NCBI RefSeq assembly: GCF_015163655.1
Contig: NZ_JADEUF010000027.1
Location: 1 to 37,751, forward strand
Reading direction: 5' to 3'
DNA length: 37,751 nt
From: Xenorhabdus griffiniae
GTDB lineage: Bacteria > Pseudomonadota > Gammaproteobacteria > Enterobacterales > Enterobacteriaceae
Positions 3,196 to 35,983 of the stretch are shown here, one piece after another. The notes below the pieces were generated by a model, which was given only the letters and a program-made list of their open reading frames with translations, did no database searches and had not been told where the DNA came from. A program made the translations under genes and the position numbers. How positions within the stretch are numbered: position 1 is the first letter of the stretch; each line of letters begins with the position of its first letter.

Positions 3196-4733
3196 AGCAT
3201 GCCTCCCTGTTGTGGCTGTTCTACCCGCTTGCGGCTTTTCGCCCAGGCAATTTGCTTGTGCCTGATAAAGTTGTTCACTTCCGGTGTCAGTTCCTGCGGG
3301 GTATCATGGAACCCGCGAGGCCAGACACCGAACTTGTCTTTAAACGTGTTAGATACCCAACCATCGCTCAGGATCTTTCCCTGTGAGGCGCGTTGGTTCT
3401 GGTAATATTTGAGCTGTGAGTAGAAGCTTTGCTTTTCAGCCTGCGTGTAAACCCGCGCTTTCTTGTTGAGCTTCTGAATGGTGCGACTGGTATCGACTTC
3501 GATATCCTCGCCTGCCAGCGGCTTAAAGCCACACTTCGGGCAGACATAAACGCCTGCGGGCTTCATGTAATGGCAAGAAGTGCATTCTTTCGGCAACTTC
3601 TCGCGTTTTTCTTGCTCCCGGTAGCTGGAGCGGGTTTTCATGCCATCGTTTTTATTTGGTAATTCGTCATACTCGATATCATCGGGATAGCCGAGACGAT
3701 GGACAGAACCGGAGTGATCGAGAATGATGCACCTATTCTTACCCTCAGCGATACGCAGACCCCTACCGATTGTTTGAAGCCAGCGGATTTCTGATTTCGT
3801 GGGGCGAGCGTAGATAATGCACCGAACGTCACTATCAAAACCTGCCACGAGTACGCCCACATTGACGATAATTTTCGTTGCGCCCTGCTCAAAGCGGTGG
3901 ATAATTAAATCCCGTTCATCATGAGGGGTATTAGCTGTCATCACCTCAGCATTGACCCCGGCGCGGTTAAATTCGACAGTGATAAAGTTGGCGTGGCTGA
4001 CATTGACACAAAAGCAAATTGTGGGTTGATTTTCACCCAACTTCAGCCAACTACTGACCACATCGCCGACCAGATCCGCCCCGCACATGATCTCGGCTAT
4101 CTCATCTTCCTTGTAGTCACTGCCATATTCCGCGCTGCTGCTGGATTTCACCCCGGTTAAGTCTGGCTTGGTGGGCGCATAAAATTCATAAGCACTCAGG
4201 TCACCACGCTGAATTAGTTCCTTAATCGTGGTGGGTTTTATCAGCTTCTGATAGTAATGACCGAGGAACGGTGAGAAAGGGGTGCCGGACAGACCGATCA
4301 CCTTACAGTCTGTTTCAGTTGTCAGCCGGGTGATTTCTTCCAGTATCTTTTTGCGTTTCAGATGCGCTTCATCAATCACCAGCAGACTAATGTCTTCGGG
4401 GAAGTCACGGCGGATCAAGGTATCAGCCGAAGCAATCTGAATCAGCTTTGACGGGTCTTGGTTAGGATGATCACGCCAGACAAAGGCAATTTCATCCCCG
4501 GGCAGGCCATATTCGGCAAACTTTTTTGCGGTTTGGTCTACGAGGATCGTATACGGCACACAGAACATGACACGCATCCCACGAGAGACATAACCGTCAG
4601 TGATAAAGGCCGCCAGTCCGGTTTTACCTGAACCGGTCGGGCTGTACACCATGAAAGTACGGTGCTGTTTCCAGTGCTGTCGCAACAGGCTTAAGCCACG
4701 TTCCTGTGCAAAGTTAGGGGTAATTTCTAGCAT
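3192..4733 (-). CDS. DEAD/DEAH-box (SF2) phage replication helicase
   Basis: A 513-residue ATPase with Walker A SPTGSGKT (31-38), DEAH (121-124), LSGTPFS (about 148-154) and the motif VI-like block QTIGRGLRIAEG. A four-cysteine zinc cluster (CTSCHYMKPAGVYVCPKC) follows in the C-terminal third. It belongs to the phage helicases related to the type III restriction/UvrB-like group and probably unwinds the phage origin or forks for the primase encoded next to it (4-nt overlap). The ATG at 4731-4733 overlaps the end of the upstream HNH gene. The direct replication role is inferred from its pairing with primase. Confidence 0.87.
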   Translation of the reverse strand: MLEITPNFAQERGLSLLRQHWKQHRTFMVYSPTGSGKTGLAAFITDGYVSRGMRVMFCVPYTILVDQTAKKFAEYGLPGDEIAFVWRDHPNQDPSKLIQIASADTLIRRDFPEDISLLVIDEAHLKRKKILEEITRLTTETDCKVIGLSGTPFSPFLGHYYQKLIKPTTIKELIQRGDLSAYEFYAPTKPDLTGVKSSSSAEYGSDYKEDEIAEIMCGADLVGDVVSSWLKLGENQPTICFCVNVSHANFITVEFNRAGVNAEVMTANTPHDERDLIIHRFEQGATKIIVNVGVLVAGFDSDVRCIIYARPTKSEIRWLQTIGRGLRIAEGKNRCIILDHSGSVHRLGYPDDIEYDELPNKNDGMKTRSSYREQEKREKLPKECTSCHYMKPAGVYVCPKCGFKPLAGEDIEVDTSRTIQKLNKKARVYTQAEKQSFYSQLKYYQNQRASQGKILSDGWVSNTFKDKFGVWPRGFHDTPQELTPEVNNFIRHKQIAWAKSRKRVEQPQQGGML

Positions 4734-32299: not shown

Positions 32300-32761
32300 A
32301 TGATTGAACAGATCGCCGCTCAGCCAGCCTGGTTCTGGCTCTGTTTTGGTGGCCTGCTTCTGATTGCAGAATTGCTGGGAACGGGAGGATATCTGTTGTG
32401 GACAGGAACCGCAGCCATCGTTGTTGTCCTGATCACATGGATTTTCCCTACTATGGGCTGGGAATTGCAAGGTACTCTGTTTGCTGTCTTAACCTTGCTT
32501 TCTGCTATTGCATGGCGTAGCTGGCTACGCCATCGCCCACGCCAGACTAGTGATAAGGCGCTCAATCAGAAAAACCACCAGTTGATTGGAATGCGTACCC
32601 GTTTAATCACGGATACCGAAAACGGTTTTGGACGAGTCAAACTGGCCGATGGCAGTTGGCGCGTTCATTGTAACCAAGAACTTCCAGCCAATACCGAAGT
32701 TGAGGTTATCGCCGTCGACGGGATCACATTAAAGGTGAAACCGGTTCTCCATCAACCATGA
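32300..32761 (+). CDS. ybbJ: NfeD-like membrane protein YbbJ
   Basis: A 153-residue protein with two or three hydrophobic segments (about 10-85, including [20 protein letters not shown]) and a C-terminal OB-fold NfeD domain ([20 protein letters not shown]). It works with QmcA. The 3' end overlaps convergent cueR by 10 nt. Confidence 0.94.
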
Positions 32762-33156
32762 TACTTACAGCAGCCAGATAAATGCTCAATGATGGGACAA
32801 TCAGCCCCATCATCTCCTGGGCATTCAGCCACCAATACCAGTAATTTTTCCTTTATCTTTTGCAATTCCAACATCGTTTTTTCTATTTCCGCCACTTTTT
32901 GCAGGGTTGCCATTTTTACATCGGCACTGTGACGGTGAGGATTGCGAAATAGTCGCAGCAATTCGCGACACTCCTCCAACGTAAATCCAACTTCTTTCGC
33001 CTGACGCAAAAGCATCAGTTCATCAATATGCCTTTTTTGGTAATGACGATAGCCATTATCTCCCCGCTCTGGTGCGGTAATGAGATCTTTTTCTTCATAA
33101 AACCGAATCGCTTTGCTGGTTAAACCGGTCTTACGGGCAATTTCACTGATATTCAT
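32752..33156 (-). CDS. cueR: Cu(I)-responsive MerR-family regulator CueR
   Basis: A 134-residue MerR regulator: helix-turn-helix ([20 protein letters not shown]), dimer coiled coil, and the Cu(I) site Cys112 and Cys120 in CPGDDGADC, the E. coli positions. It binds the copA operator next door and, on sensing Cu(I), twists the 19-bp spacer into an active promoter. In E. coli glsA-ybaT separate it from copA; here it is directly divergent. Confidence 0.97.
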
Positions 33157-33165
33157 TATTTCCCC

Positions 33166-33196
33166 TTGACCTTCCCCTTGCCGGAAGGTTTAGCCT
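33166..33196 (+). promoter_or_regulatory. CueR operator/promoter of copA
   Basis: -35 TTGACC (33166-33171) and -10 TAGCCT (33191-33196) are separated by the over-long 19 bp typical of MerR promoters. The dyad ACCTTCC (33169-33175) and GGAAGGT (33183-33189) between them is almost the E. coli copA box. Confidence 0.95.
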
Positions 33197-33235
33197 TAAT
33201 GATAAGTATATCACTCTGTATCAGGAGATATTGTT

Positions 33236-35983
33236 ATGTCCACAACCACCATTCTCGCACTTCAAGGCCTGACTTGTATGCATTGTGTCGGCAGGGTTAA
33301 AAAAGCGTTGGAAAGAATACCCGGCGTTGAGCTGACGGATGTGAACCTCAATTATGCCAAAGTTATCAGTAATGTTTCACCTGATGAATTGATTGCGGCC
33401 ATTGTTGCCGAAGATTATCAAGCCTCTGTTGCCACCCAACCCGATGTTGTATTACGCCTGTCAGGTTTAAGCTGCATGAAATGTGCAAATAAAACACAAA
33501 AGGCATTGGACGCGGTAGAAGGTGTTATCGCCACAGAAGTTAATACCCAAGCTGCAAAAATCTATGGTAAAGCAGAGAACAGTGCCTTAATCCATGCAGT
33601 CGAACAAGCCGGATATCACGCTGAATTAGCAACGGAAACCGAGTACCCAAAAACTGAGCCGCTGGCAATACATGTTCCACAGACTCCGGAGTCTTTGGCA
33701 GCGGCAATATCTTCGACTCCGGTAGAAACCGTTTCTGTTGAACACAGCAACAAAAATGATGTGAGTGGTAATGACAGTATTCAGCTCCTGCTGGATGGCA
33801 TGAGCTGTGCAAGCTGTGTTAGTAAGGTACAAAAAGCCCTGCAATCCGTTGATGGCGTGGAACATGCCAGAGTCAATCTCGCGGAAAGAAGCGCATTGGT
33901 CACAGGCCACGCCTCACCAAATGCCTTAGTTGAAGCCGTCATCAAGGCCGGTTATGGTGCGGAAATTATTCAGGATGAAACAGAACGCCGTGAGCGTCAG
34001 CAACAATTAGCACAGGCCAATATGCGCCGATTTCGCTGGCAATCGGCCCTTGCGTTAGTGGTTGGATTGCCTGTCATGGTGTGGGGTATGGTAGGCGACA
34101 ATATGATACTCACACCAGCAAACCACACCATTTGGCTAACTATTGGTTTGGTGACGCTGGTTGTAATGCTATTTGCAGGTGGGCATTTTTATCGTAATGC
34201 GTGGCAAAGTCTAAAAAATGGCAGTGCAACAATGGATACCCTCGTAGCTCTGGGTACTGGTGTCGCATGGCTCTATTCAATAAGCGTCAATTTGTGGCCA
34301 GAAATTTTCCCCCCCCAAGCTCGCCATCTTTATTATGAAGCCAGTGCCATGATTATTGGTTTGGTCAATCTCGGCCATGCCTTGGAACAACGTGCCCGCC
34401 AACGCTCTTCCAAGGCCCTTGAGCGATTATTAGATCTCACGCCACCAACGGCGCGGCTAGTTACCTCTGAAGGTGAAAAAACAGTGCCTCTGGCCGATGT
34501 CATGCCCAATATGATACTACGCCTGACAACAGGAGATCGTGTTCCGGTTGATGGTGAAATTACTCAGGGTACAGTTTGGCTGGATGAAGCCATGCTGACA
34601 GGTGAACCTATTCCTCAGCAGAAAACAACTGGCGATACCGTCCATGCCGGCACTGTAGTCCAGGATGGTACGGTATTGTTTAAAGCCAATGCCATTGGCA
34701 GCCAAACAACCTTGGCACGCATTATTAAACTTGTTCGTCAGGCACAAAGCAGCAAACCTGAAATCGGCCAATTGGCCGATAAAATATCTTCAATATTCGT
34801 GCCTGTTGTCGTTGCTATCGCCCTGATTGCTGGCGCGATTTGGTATTTTGTCGGCCCTGCCCCACAAATCATGTACGCACTGGTCATCATGACAACCGTC
34901 TTGATTATCGCCTGTCCTTGCGCACTTGGGCTGGCAACCCCCATGTCCATCATCTCAGGGGTAGGACGGGCAGCCGAATTAGGTGTATTGGTGCGTGATG
35001 CTGATGCTCTGCAACATGCCAGTCAACTGGATACGATTGTCTTTGACAAAACAGGAACCTTAACTGAAGGTATGCCACAAGTCACAGAGATCCACACCTT
35101 TAATGGTTTCACCGAAGAGCAAGTATTACTATGGGCCGGTGCATTAGAAAATGGCTCTAATCACCCCTTGGCAAAAGCTATTTTATTGCAGGTTGAGGGG
35201 CAAAAATTACCCGAAGTACAAACATTCCGAACCCTCGCAGGATTGGGTGTTAAGGGAGAAATTGGAGAGGCTACGCTGTTATTGGGTAACCAAAAATTAC
35301 TTGAGCAGCATCAGATTGAAACAACAGAATTAAAGCCATTTATTGCGGCACAGGCAGAAAGAGGCATTACTCCCGTTATTCTGTCGGCCAATGGGAAAAT
35401 CGCTGCCCTGTTCTCTATCCGTGATCCCTTGCGCCAGGATACCATTTCTGCCCTGCAACGCTTACATCACCAAGGCTATCGTTTGGTTATGTTAACAGGA
35501 GATAATCCCATCACAGCGAATGCCATAGCCCAAGAAGCAGGTATTGACCAGGTGATTGCCGGTGTTTTGCCTGATGGTAAAGCCGCAGCCATTCAGTCAC
35601 TTCAATCAGAAGGCAGAAAAGTGGCGATGGTCGGCGATGGCATAAACGACGCCCCTGCATTGGCGCAAGCGGATGTCGGCATCGCAATGGGAAGCGGTAG
35701 CGATATCGCCATAGAAACCGCAACAATTACCCTGATGCGCCATAGCCTGCACGGGGTTGCTGATGCAGTTGAATTATCCCGCGGTACATTGCGTAATATG
35801 AAACAAAACCTATTTGGTGCATTTGTCTATAATACCTTAGGCATTCCAATTGCGGCCGGCATTTTATACCCGTTCACGGGCACTTTATTAAATCCTGTCG
35901 TTGCAGGTGCGGCCATGGCACTGTCTTCTATTACTGTTGTCAGTAACGCCAATCGCTTATTACGTTTCAAACCTAAGTCCTGA
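33236..35983 (+). CDS. copA: Cu(I)-exporting P-type ATPase CopA with three metal-binding domains
   Basis: A 915-residue P1B-ATPase, about 80 longer than E. coli CopA (834). Three HMA domains at the N-terminus carry C14MHC17, C80MKC83 and C191ASC194; E. coli has two. The membrane copper motif C560PC562, phosphorylation site D604KTGT, TGEPIPQ and [14 protein letters not shown] are intact. It exports Cu(I) to the periplasm at ATP cost. A probable -1 frameshift signal after the second HMA domain (33646-33705) would also yield a 140-residue soluble copper chaperone. A run of eight C at 34309-34316 lies in the membrane region. Confidence 0.97.
33646..33705 (+). promoter_or_regulatory. Programmed -1 ribosomal frameshift signal in copA
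   Basis: The slippery heptamer C CCA AAA (33646-33652) has P138 and K139 in frame. After a -1 slip the next codons are AAC TGA, ending the product at 140 residues. Five nt on, GCCGCTG (33658-33664) pairs perfectly with CAGCGGC (33699-33705). A small palindrome (GACTCCGGAGTC, 33682-33693) lies in the loop. E. coli copA shifts at a CCCAAAG site that also reaches a stop at once, in the equivalent place (HPKAKPLA there, YPKTEPLA here). Confidence 0.78.

Follow-up and report, generated by a model that had tools for sequence, protein, structure and literature searches.

The window, that is, the whole stretch of 37,751 nucleotides of Xenorhabdus griffiniae DNA that was analysed, contains a copA gene whose product scores 1640 bits against the NCBIfam model NF007952 (copper-exporting P-type ATPase CopA; cut-off 1316) and whose best matches among the best 80 of 237 named loci are Xenorhabdus genes, 96% identical. 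A perfect dyad lies between copA and a divergent regulator gene, which we take to be of the MerR type and probably cueR; by its resemblance to CueR-type operators the dyad is presumably such an operator. The features of this region are as follows.

32752 to 33156, minus strand: divergent regulator open reading frame (ORF), 134 aa (ORF list)
33169 to 33189, plus strand: dyad ACCTTCC-N7-GGAAGGT upstream of copA, a putative operator (direct sequence reading)
33236 to 35983, plus strand: copA, copper-exporting P-type ATPase, zero-frame product of 915 aa (ORF list; NF007952)
33236 to 33657, plus strand: predicted -1 product, 140 aa, two CxxC domains (sequence; NCBIfam NF047957)
33254 to 33409, plus strand: metal-binding domain 1, CMHC (PF00403, 39.4 bits)
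33449 to 33619, plus strand: metal-binding domain 2, CMKC, the final domain 5' of the recoding site (PF00403, 36.3 bits)
33646 to 33652, plus strand: slippery heptamer C CCA AAA (sequence; family conservation)
33652 to 33657, plus strand: AAC TGA, last sense codon and stop of the -1 frame (sequence; family conservation)
33658 to 33664, plus strand: predicted pseudoknot stem 1, 5' arm GCCGCTG (sequence; comparative pairing)
33686 to 33693, plus strand: predicted pseudoknot stem 2, 5' arm CCGGAGTC (sequence; comparative pairing)
33699 to 33705, plus strand: predicted pseudoknot stem 1, 3' arm CAGCGGC (sequence; comparative pairing)
33715 to 33722, plus strand: predicted pseudoknot stem 2, 3' arm GACTCCGG (sequence; comparative pairing)
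33791 to 33955, plus strand: metal-binding domain 3, CASC, present in the full-length pump only (PF00403, 64 bits)

The predicted recoding signal and its E. coli counterpart

A sequence-only reading of this DNA had proposed that copA encodes a two-domain copper chaperone by programmed -1 frameshifting, and its elements were all recovered at 33646-33705. The heptamer, of the X XXY YYZ form typical of the E. coli-type copA frameshift, covers Y137, P138 and K139 of the zero frame, the -1 frame terminates immediately (AAC TGA), and the resulting 140-residue product with two CxxC domains would have a mass of 14,932 Da (14.9 kDa). The PF00403 positions bear out that the site follows the second of three domains, with one domain downstream, as required for a two-domain short product. 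The zero-frame portion of this product (139 of 140 residues) matches the NCBIfam NF047957 CopZ family in two stretches with 106.3 bits (cut-off 85), which assigns to it, as a sequence match alone, the CxxC ferredoxin-like HMA domains of the model. When the first 250 codons were shuffled 20,000 times, 3.95% of the shuffles produced an in-frame CCCAAAR, and 0.35% produced one that was followed after one codon by a -1 stop. An Rfam search over 33000-34200 gave nothing credible near the site (best E 3.3).

Programmed -1 frameshifting in E. coli copA, yielding CopA(Z), was reportedly described by Meydan et al. and by Drees et al. in 2017. Frameshifting of this type has been seen in cells and is stimulated by the nascent chain, and CopA(Z) has been reported as an aid to copper survival in E. 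coli. E. coli is reported to make a 70-residue frameshift product and an 834-residue pump (PMC5009743), with which a hand count on the E. coli locus (L145) agrees: the heptamer takes in the end of codon 67 and all of codons 68 and 69, after which the -1 frame reads GGC for residue 70 and then TAA. Another source backs the E. coli frameshift with ribosome profiling and an independent study and finds a claimed human ATP7B counterpart unsupported (PMC9548414); the frameshift is also treated in PMC6747150. The E. coli gene aligns without gaps with the family at the heptamer and at both downstream helices, in agreement with the homology that had been proposed. The two genes share the place before the last metal-binding domain, CCCAAAR, the immediate -1 stop and homologous pseudoknot helices. 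The window gene differs in having two domains before the site and a product of 140 rather than 70 residues, in a heptamer that ends in A and not in G, and in a -1 codon for Asn instead of Gly. The dnaX frameshift of E. coli is alike in combining a heptamer with a downstream structure and in that the slip leads to a shorter protein without the C-terminal part, and unlike in that the gene is unrelated, the structure is a hairpin rather than a pseudoknot, and the frameshift product joins the complex of the long form.

The 7-bp stem expected 5 nt after the heptamer is present (GCCGCTG 33658-33664, CAGCGGC 33699-33705), but it does not stand alone as had been assumed. A second helix of 8 bp, CCGGAGTC with GACTCCGG, which the earlier reading lacked, interlocks with it, and the two are therefore predicted to form an H-type pseudoknot, as expected downstream of an E. 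coli-type copA site. An equal number of pairs was reached in 19 of 300 triplet shuffles of the window sequence, so that the single-sequence evidence is modest and the comparative evidence decides. Over 102 aligned sequences, 89.6% of cells are paired, versus 19.6-49.5% with the partners slid, and 80 cells show two-sided changes, versus 28.8 in shuffles, none of 500 of which was as high. Such changes affect 12 of 16 pairs. Helix 1 is paired in 96.5% of cells and helix 2 in 84.2%, with a two-sided change at every one of the 9 counted pairs of helix 2; its inner end is the weakest part, the two innermost pairs being broken in 35 and 48 of the 102 sequences. Examples of C-G replaced by U-A are found in stem 1 in three Pantoea rows and L210, and in stem 2 in two Proteus rows and L122.

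Conservation of the site across the family

Two partly overlapping sets of genes were compared: a family set of 104 genomes with a match at E <= 1e-40, out of 188 drawn evenly from the family, and a named set consisting of the best 80 of 237 named loci (L081 and L120 are the same stretch). Relatedness in the counts was handled by thinning only. In the family set, 99 of the 104 copA genes have at least two metal-binding domains, and 96 of these 99 contain an in-frame CCCAAAR, always with exactly one domain downstream, followed in 95 of the 96 by an immediate -1 stop after one codon. The three multi-domain exceptions are L120, with no site, L192, with AAAAAAA and the stop kept, and L197, with CTCAAAA. 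The site is also present in 67 of the best 80 named loci, with the immediate stop in 66; among these 80, the heptamer is found in 18 of 19 Xenorhabdus loci (immediate stop in 17) and, together with the immediate stop, in all 12 Photorhabdus loci. The 13 site-less loci of the 80 comprise L104, in which no N-terminus was found in the open frame, three one-domain Pasteurellaceae, five Photobacterium, one Moellerella, two Arsenophonus and X. innexi. In the five Photobacterium copA genes, a search for in-frame X XXA AAN or X XXT TTN before the membrane part found none at the matching place; one such heptamer, GGGTTTA in L114, lies within the second domain.

To make the choice of genes independent of the heptamer, they were selected by an amino-acid motif of the linker, K-x-[EKDNQ]-P-[LMV], which does require the Lys. 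This motif is present in 97 of the 99 multi-domain family genes; 95 of the 97 carry CCCAAAR, and in 96 the second codon of the -1 frame is a stop. The position before Pro-Lys is occupied by ten different residues in the 96 site-bearing family genes, so protein-level constraint does not account for the first C of the heptamer. Synonymous choice was assessed in 98 thinned sequences. These had been selected for having the heptamer, CC.[CT]TG and, within 24 codons, a -1 stop, which makes codons 0, 1, 2 and 6 circular; the assessment therefore uses codons 3 and 5 only. The third base of the stop-creating codon is T in 96 of the 98 (18.8 expected from per-gene codon usage), and that of the stem 1 Pro codon is G in 97 (45.8 expected). 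Free synonymous variation among relatives, which had been named beforehand as the observation that would speak against recoding, is thus not what was found: the heptamer, the -1 stop and the helices are kept while the residue before Pro-Lys varies. An origin of the site by chance or from the protein sequence only was rejected on the grounds of covariation, third-base bias, the linker-motif counts and the varied residues before Pro-Lys.

As a side observation, Shine-Dalgarno-like GGAG, GAGG or AGGA elements occur 5-18 bases 5' of the heptamer in 35 of 98 relatives, versus 5.9% of control stretches, and G is in excess at synonymous positions of the region homologous to 33628-33641 in these 98. 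Such an element could possibly act as an extra stimulator in some relatives; window copA is without one at 33628-33641, and the element therefore forms no part of the explanation for the window.

Domain number, separate chaperones and the reading of the window site

Among the 96 site-bearing family genes, one domain lies upstream of the site in 66, two in 25 and three in 5; among the best 80 of 237 named loci the corresponding numbers are 18, 35 and 14. Two-domain short products are predicted in Xenorhabdus, Photorhabdus, Serratia and some Providencia, and three-domain ones in Proteus and other Providencia. The window gene thus departs from the single domain of the E. coli short product, and domain number was treated as a variable trait within the kind and not as a defining one. 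The layout that had been called a new architecture is real, but it is not peculiar to the window gene, since one to three domains occur across the family.

The history of these domains was followed on a FastTree phylogeny of 165 pump cores (58 of 162 inner branches weak), on which upstream domain number needs at least 18 changes, versus a mean of 68.7 after shuffling; with each state scored by itself, starred branches force 8 changes for one upstream domain, 9 for two, 4 for three and 3 for none. A second tree, built from 59 domains of 21 hand-picked copA genes, unites the last domains of all 21 in a single clade that excludes the upstream domains (100/99 support; 200 of 200 bootstrap trees), and gain and loss of domains are therefore placed before the site, in the chaperone part. 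The site is kept with one upstream domain, where most relatives have two, in X. koppenhoeferi, Xenorhabdus sp. IM139775 and P. thracensis, which is read from the sequences as losses. The comparison indicates that the site is fixed just before the last metal-binding domain while upstream domain number changes repeatedly; the suggestion that a domain was duplicated upstream with the site retained agrees with this, with the addition that domains were lost as well as gained. In the open-licence literature on the copA frameshift or multi-domain CopA(Z), to the extent of the text available, no statement of variable domain number or of inversion was found; Meydan et al. 2017 may show alignments with such species.

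Of the four PF00403 matches (E <= 0.001) in the window genome, copA accounts for three and a 791-codon frame for the fourth; this search found no separate chaperone gene. In 30 chosen site-bearing genomes, a separate HMA ORF of at most 206 codons is absent from 19 and present in 11. Fourteen genomes lack the standard arrangement (the same Moellerella appears twice among them, as G503 and G557): nine of these have no separate HMA ORF, two have one elsewhere, and three have one directly upstream of copA. The site has been lost from the copA genes of Moellerella (L081/L120), two Arsenophonus (L086, L095) and X. innexi (L102), which still encode three or four metal-binding domains, and the search of these genomes gave no separate short HMA ORF either; the idea that a separate chaperone always replaces a lost site was ruled out on these cases. 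X. kozodoii (L099, from position 3444) and L198 retain CCCAAAA with the stop-making codon changed, and their -1 frame continues for 24 or 18 codons. Since some lineages lost the site or the nearby stop, and the site-less ones yielded no separate short HMA ORF in the search, the short product is dispensable in some settings.

In Pasteurellaceae copZ is kept adjacent to copA, and H. influenzae has between 3 and 7 copies of it in tandem (PMC10187127). Chaperone dose next to copA thus varies by tandem duplication in H. influenzae too, unlike copA of the window in that separate copZ genes are duplicated and not domains within one reading frame. In two Pasteurellaceae loci (L105, L113) the copZ ORF overlaps the pump frame and ends in GGCAAAGTAG or GGCAAAGTAA.

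Taken together, the window site is very probably the known enterobacterial copA programmed -1 frameshift with a two-domain chaperone product, upstream domain number varying across the family; the family-wide conservation of heptamer and -1 stop and the covariation of the helices argue for this and against chance. Some ribosomes translating copA would slip back by one base, with CCA-AAA re-pairing as CCC-AAA, aided by the downstream H-type pseudoknot; they would add Asn and stop at UGA. The protein so released would be soluble and 140 residues long, with two domains for copper binding, and is expected to be a cytosolic copper chaperone; the remaining ribosomes would read on to the three-domain pump. 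Duplication and loss of upstream domains would set one, two or three copper sites in the chaperone. What the sequences themselves show is the site, the stop and the predicted pseudoknot, the conservation of these elements and the varying domain number. We infer slippage in the window species, and its efficiency, and the role of the short product as a free soluble protein delivering Cu(I) is suggested by analogy with E. coli.

The conservation of PK and PL in the protein and the modest pseudoknot of the window taken alone could also be accommodated if there were no recoding and the heptamer, stop and stem had arisen incidentally from codon bias and the conservation of a PK-x-EPL linker peptide. 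This is very improbable given an initial C that is free of protein constraint, the near-universal CCCAAAR in genes picked by protein motif, third bases that are kept, for the -1 stop and for stem 1, well beyond what codon usage predicts, and two-sided changes in both helices. It is likewise rather unlikely that frameshifting is real and merely tunes the amount of pump, the short protein being unimportant. Lineages with neither site nor detected separate short HMA ORF are in keeping with such tuning; extra domains that sit on the chaperone side of the site, the reported benefit of CopA(Z) for copper survival in E. coli, and purifying selection on a free-standing chaperone ORF (L239 versus L240, dN/dS 0.22, see below) speak against it, as does the retention of copZ by copA in Pasteurellaceae, tandemly repeated in H. 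influenzae (PMC10187127). For E. coli, the title of Drees et al. 2017, which mentions differential transcript formation, suggests as a title that a shortened transcript is involved. A short product made mainly from such a transcript, instead of or besides slippage, is held to be improbable for the window gene, where the conserved features are the heptamer, the -1 stop and the pseudoknot.

Copies with the chaperone in the zero frame

Three genomes (G493, G485, G396), the same three that have a short HMA ORF directly upstream of copA, keep the heptamer and both helices with five bases rather than six between the heptamer and CCGCTG. In these inverted copies the frame of the first domain stops soon after the heptamer, ending in SPKLSR, APKLRR or APKPRR. 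The pump is encoded in the -1 frame, so that a CCA-AAA to CCC-AAA slip would lead into the full pump. (L206 and L242 are G493, L243 is G565, L214 and L239 are G396, L212 and L240 are G485, and L216 is G411.) A scan for the pattern over 392 family genomes gave 11 places in 10 genomes, four of which are copA (G493, G485, G482, G396); the other seven are apparently unrelated, as judged by eye, and are expected as background because a reversed control pattern matched six genomes (counted by eye). G565, of the same genus as G493, is also inverted, and the remaining four of the six species there are standard. On the pump-core tree, L212, L214 and L216 group together, with L211 as the nearest other row, and L206 adjoins the standard-form L208 and L202; the smallest group with both placements holds 37 of the 165 rows. 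As the inverted rows fall in two places, at least two separate inversions are indicated. L216 has lost the upstream part, and the G482 copy is clearly decayed.

Between L239 and L240, dN/dS is 0.22 for the chaperone part and 0.15 for the pump part (dS 0.65 and 0.56), and between L242 and L243 it is 0.32 on two changes and 0.07, respectively; these comparisons indicate that both frames are under purifying selection where changes suffice to tell. The helices of the inverted copies contain, with G-U allowed, 7+11 pairs in L239, 7+9 in L240 and 10+8 in L242, numbers reached in 0, 5 and 0 of 300 shuffles. The pump frame opens 5' of the heptamer by 6 bases in L242 and L243, by 12 in L240 and by 96 in L239.

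From these sequences we consider it rather likely that slippage makes the pump in the inverted copies. The arrangement would then resemble the frameshifts of IS transposases, in which the zero frame gives a short protein and the -1 slip a long one, and differ from them in that those belong to mobile elements with other slippery sites and another function. An alternative, possible and less probable than not, is that no recoding takes place, the genes being separate copZ and copA with an internal or re-initiating start, or else broken or affected by sequencing errors. A separate copZ beside a one-domain copA is the Pasteurellaceae plan, L242 and L243 have an in-frame ATG at +102, and the decay in G482 also fits. 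Against this, the shorter spacer is common to G493 and G565, which are different species of a single genus, and to copies from three other genera (G396, G485, G482), L239 and L240 are constrained in both frames at a dS of about 0.6, and the heptamer and both pseudoknot helices are retained. Moreover, the candidate pump starts, GTG at +33 in L239 and TTG at +105 in L240, are not common to both, and no convincing ribosome-binding site was seen by eye in the 14 bases before either. With slippage making the pump, the copA signal would be a portable, polarity-free switch: upstream domains vary freely from one to three, and at least two independent enterobacterial lineages would have swapped the outcomes, with every full-length pump there arising by a -1 slip. 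The sequences incline us, with some reserve, towards this wider view as well.

A recoding site can thus serve as a fixed boundary at which a gene gains or drops domains of one of its two products, comparable to the variation of copZ gene copies in Haemophilus, and CopA(Z) with one, two or three domains provides natural variants with which to ask what extra copper sites do in a chaperone. If confirmed, the inverted copies would be a naturally inverted recoding signal, both of whose products are kept, and would show that the same signal can serve either product. They would offer a direct test of slippage efficiency as a constraint on polarity, and a warning that copA genes of this kind may be broken up or dropped in annotation.
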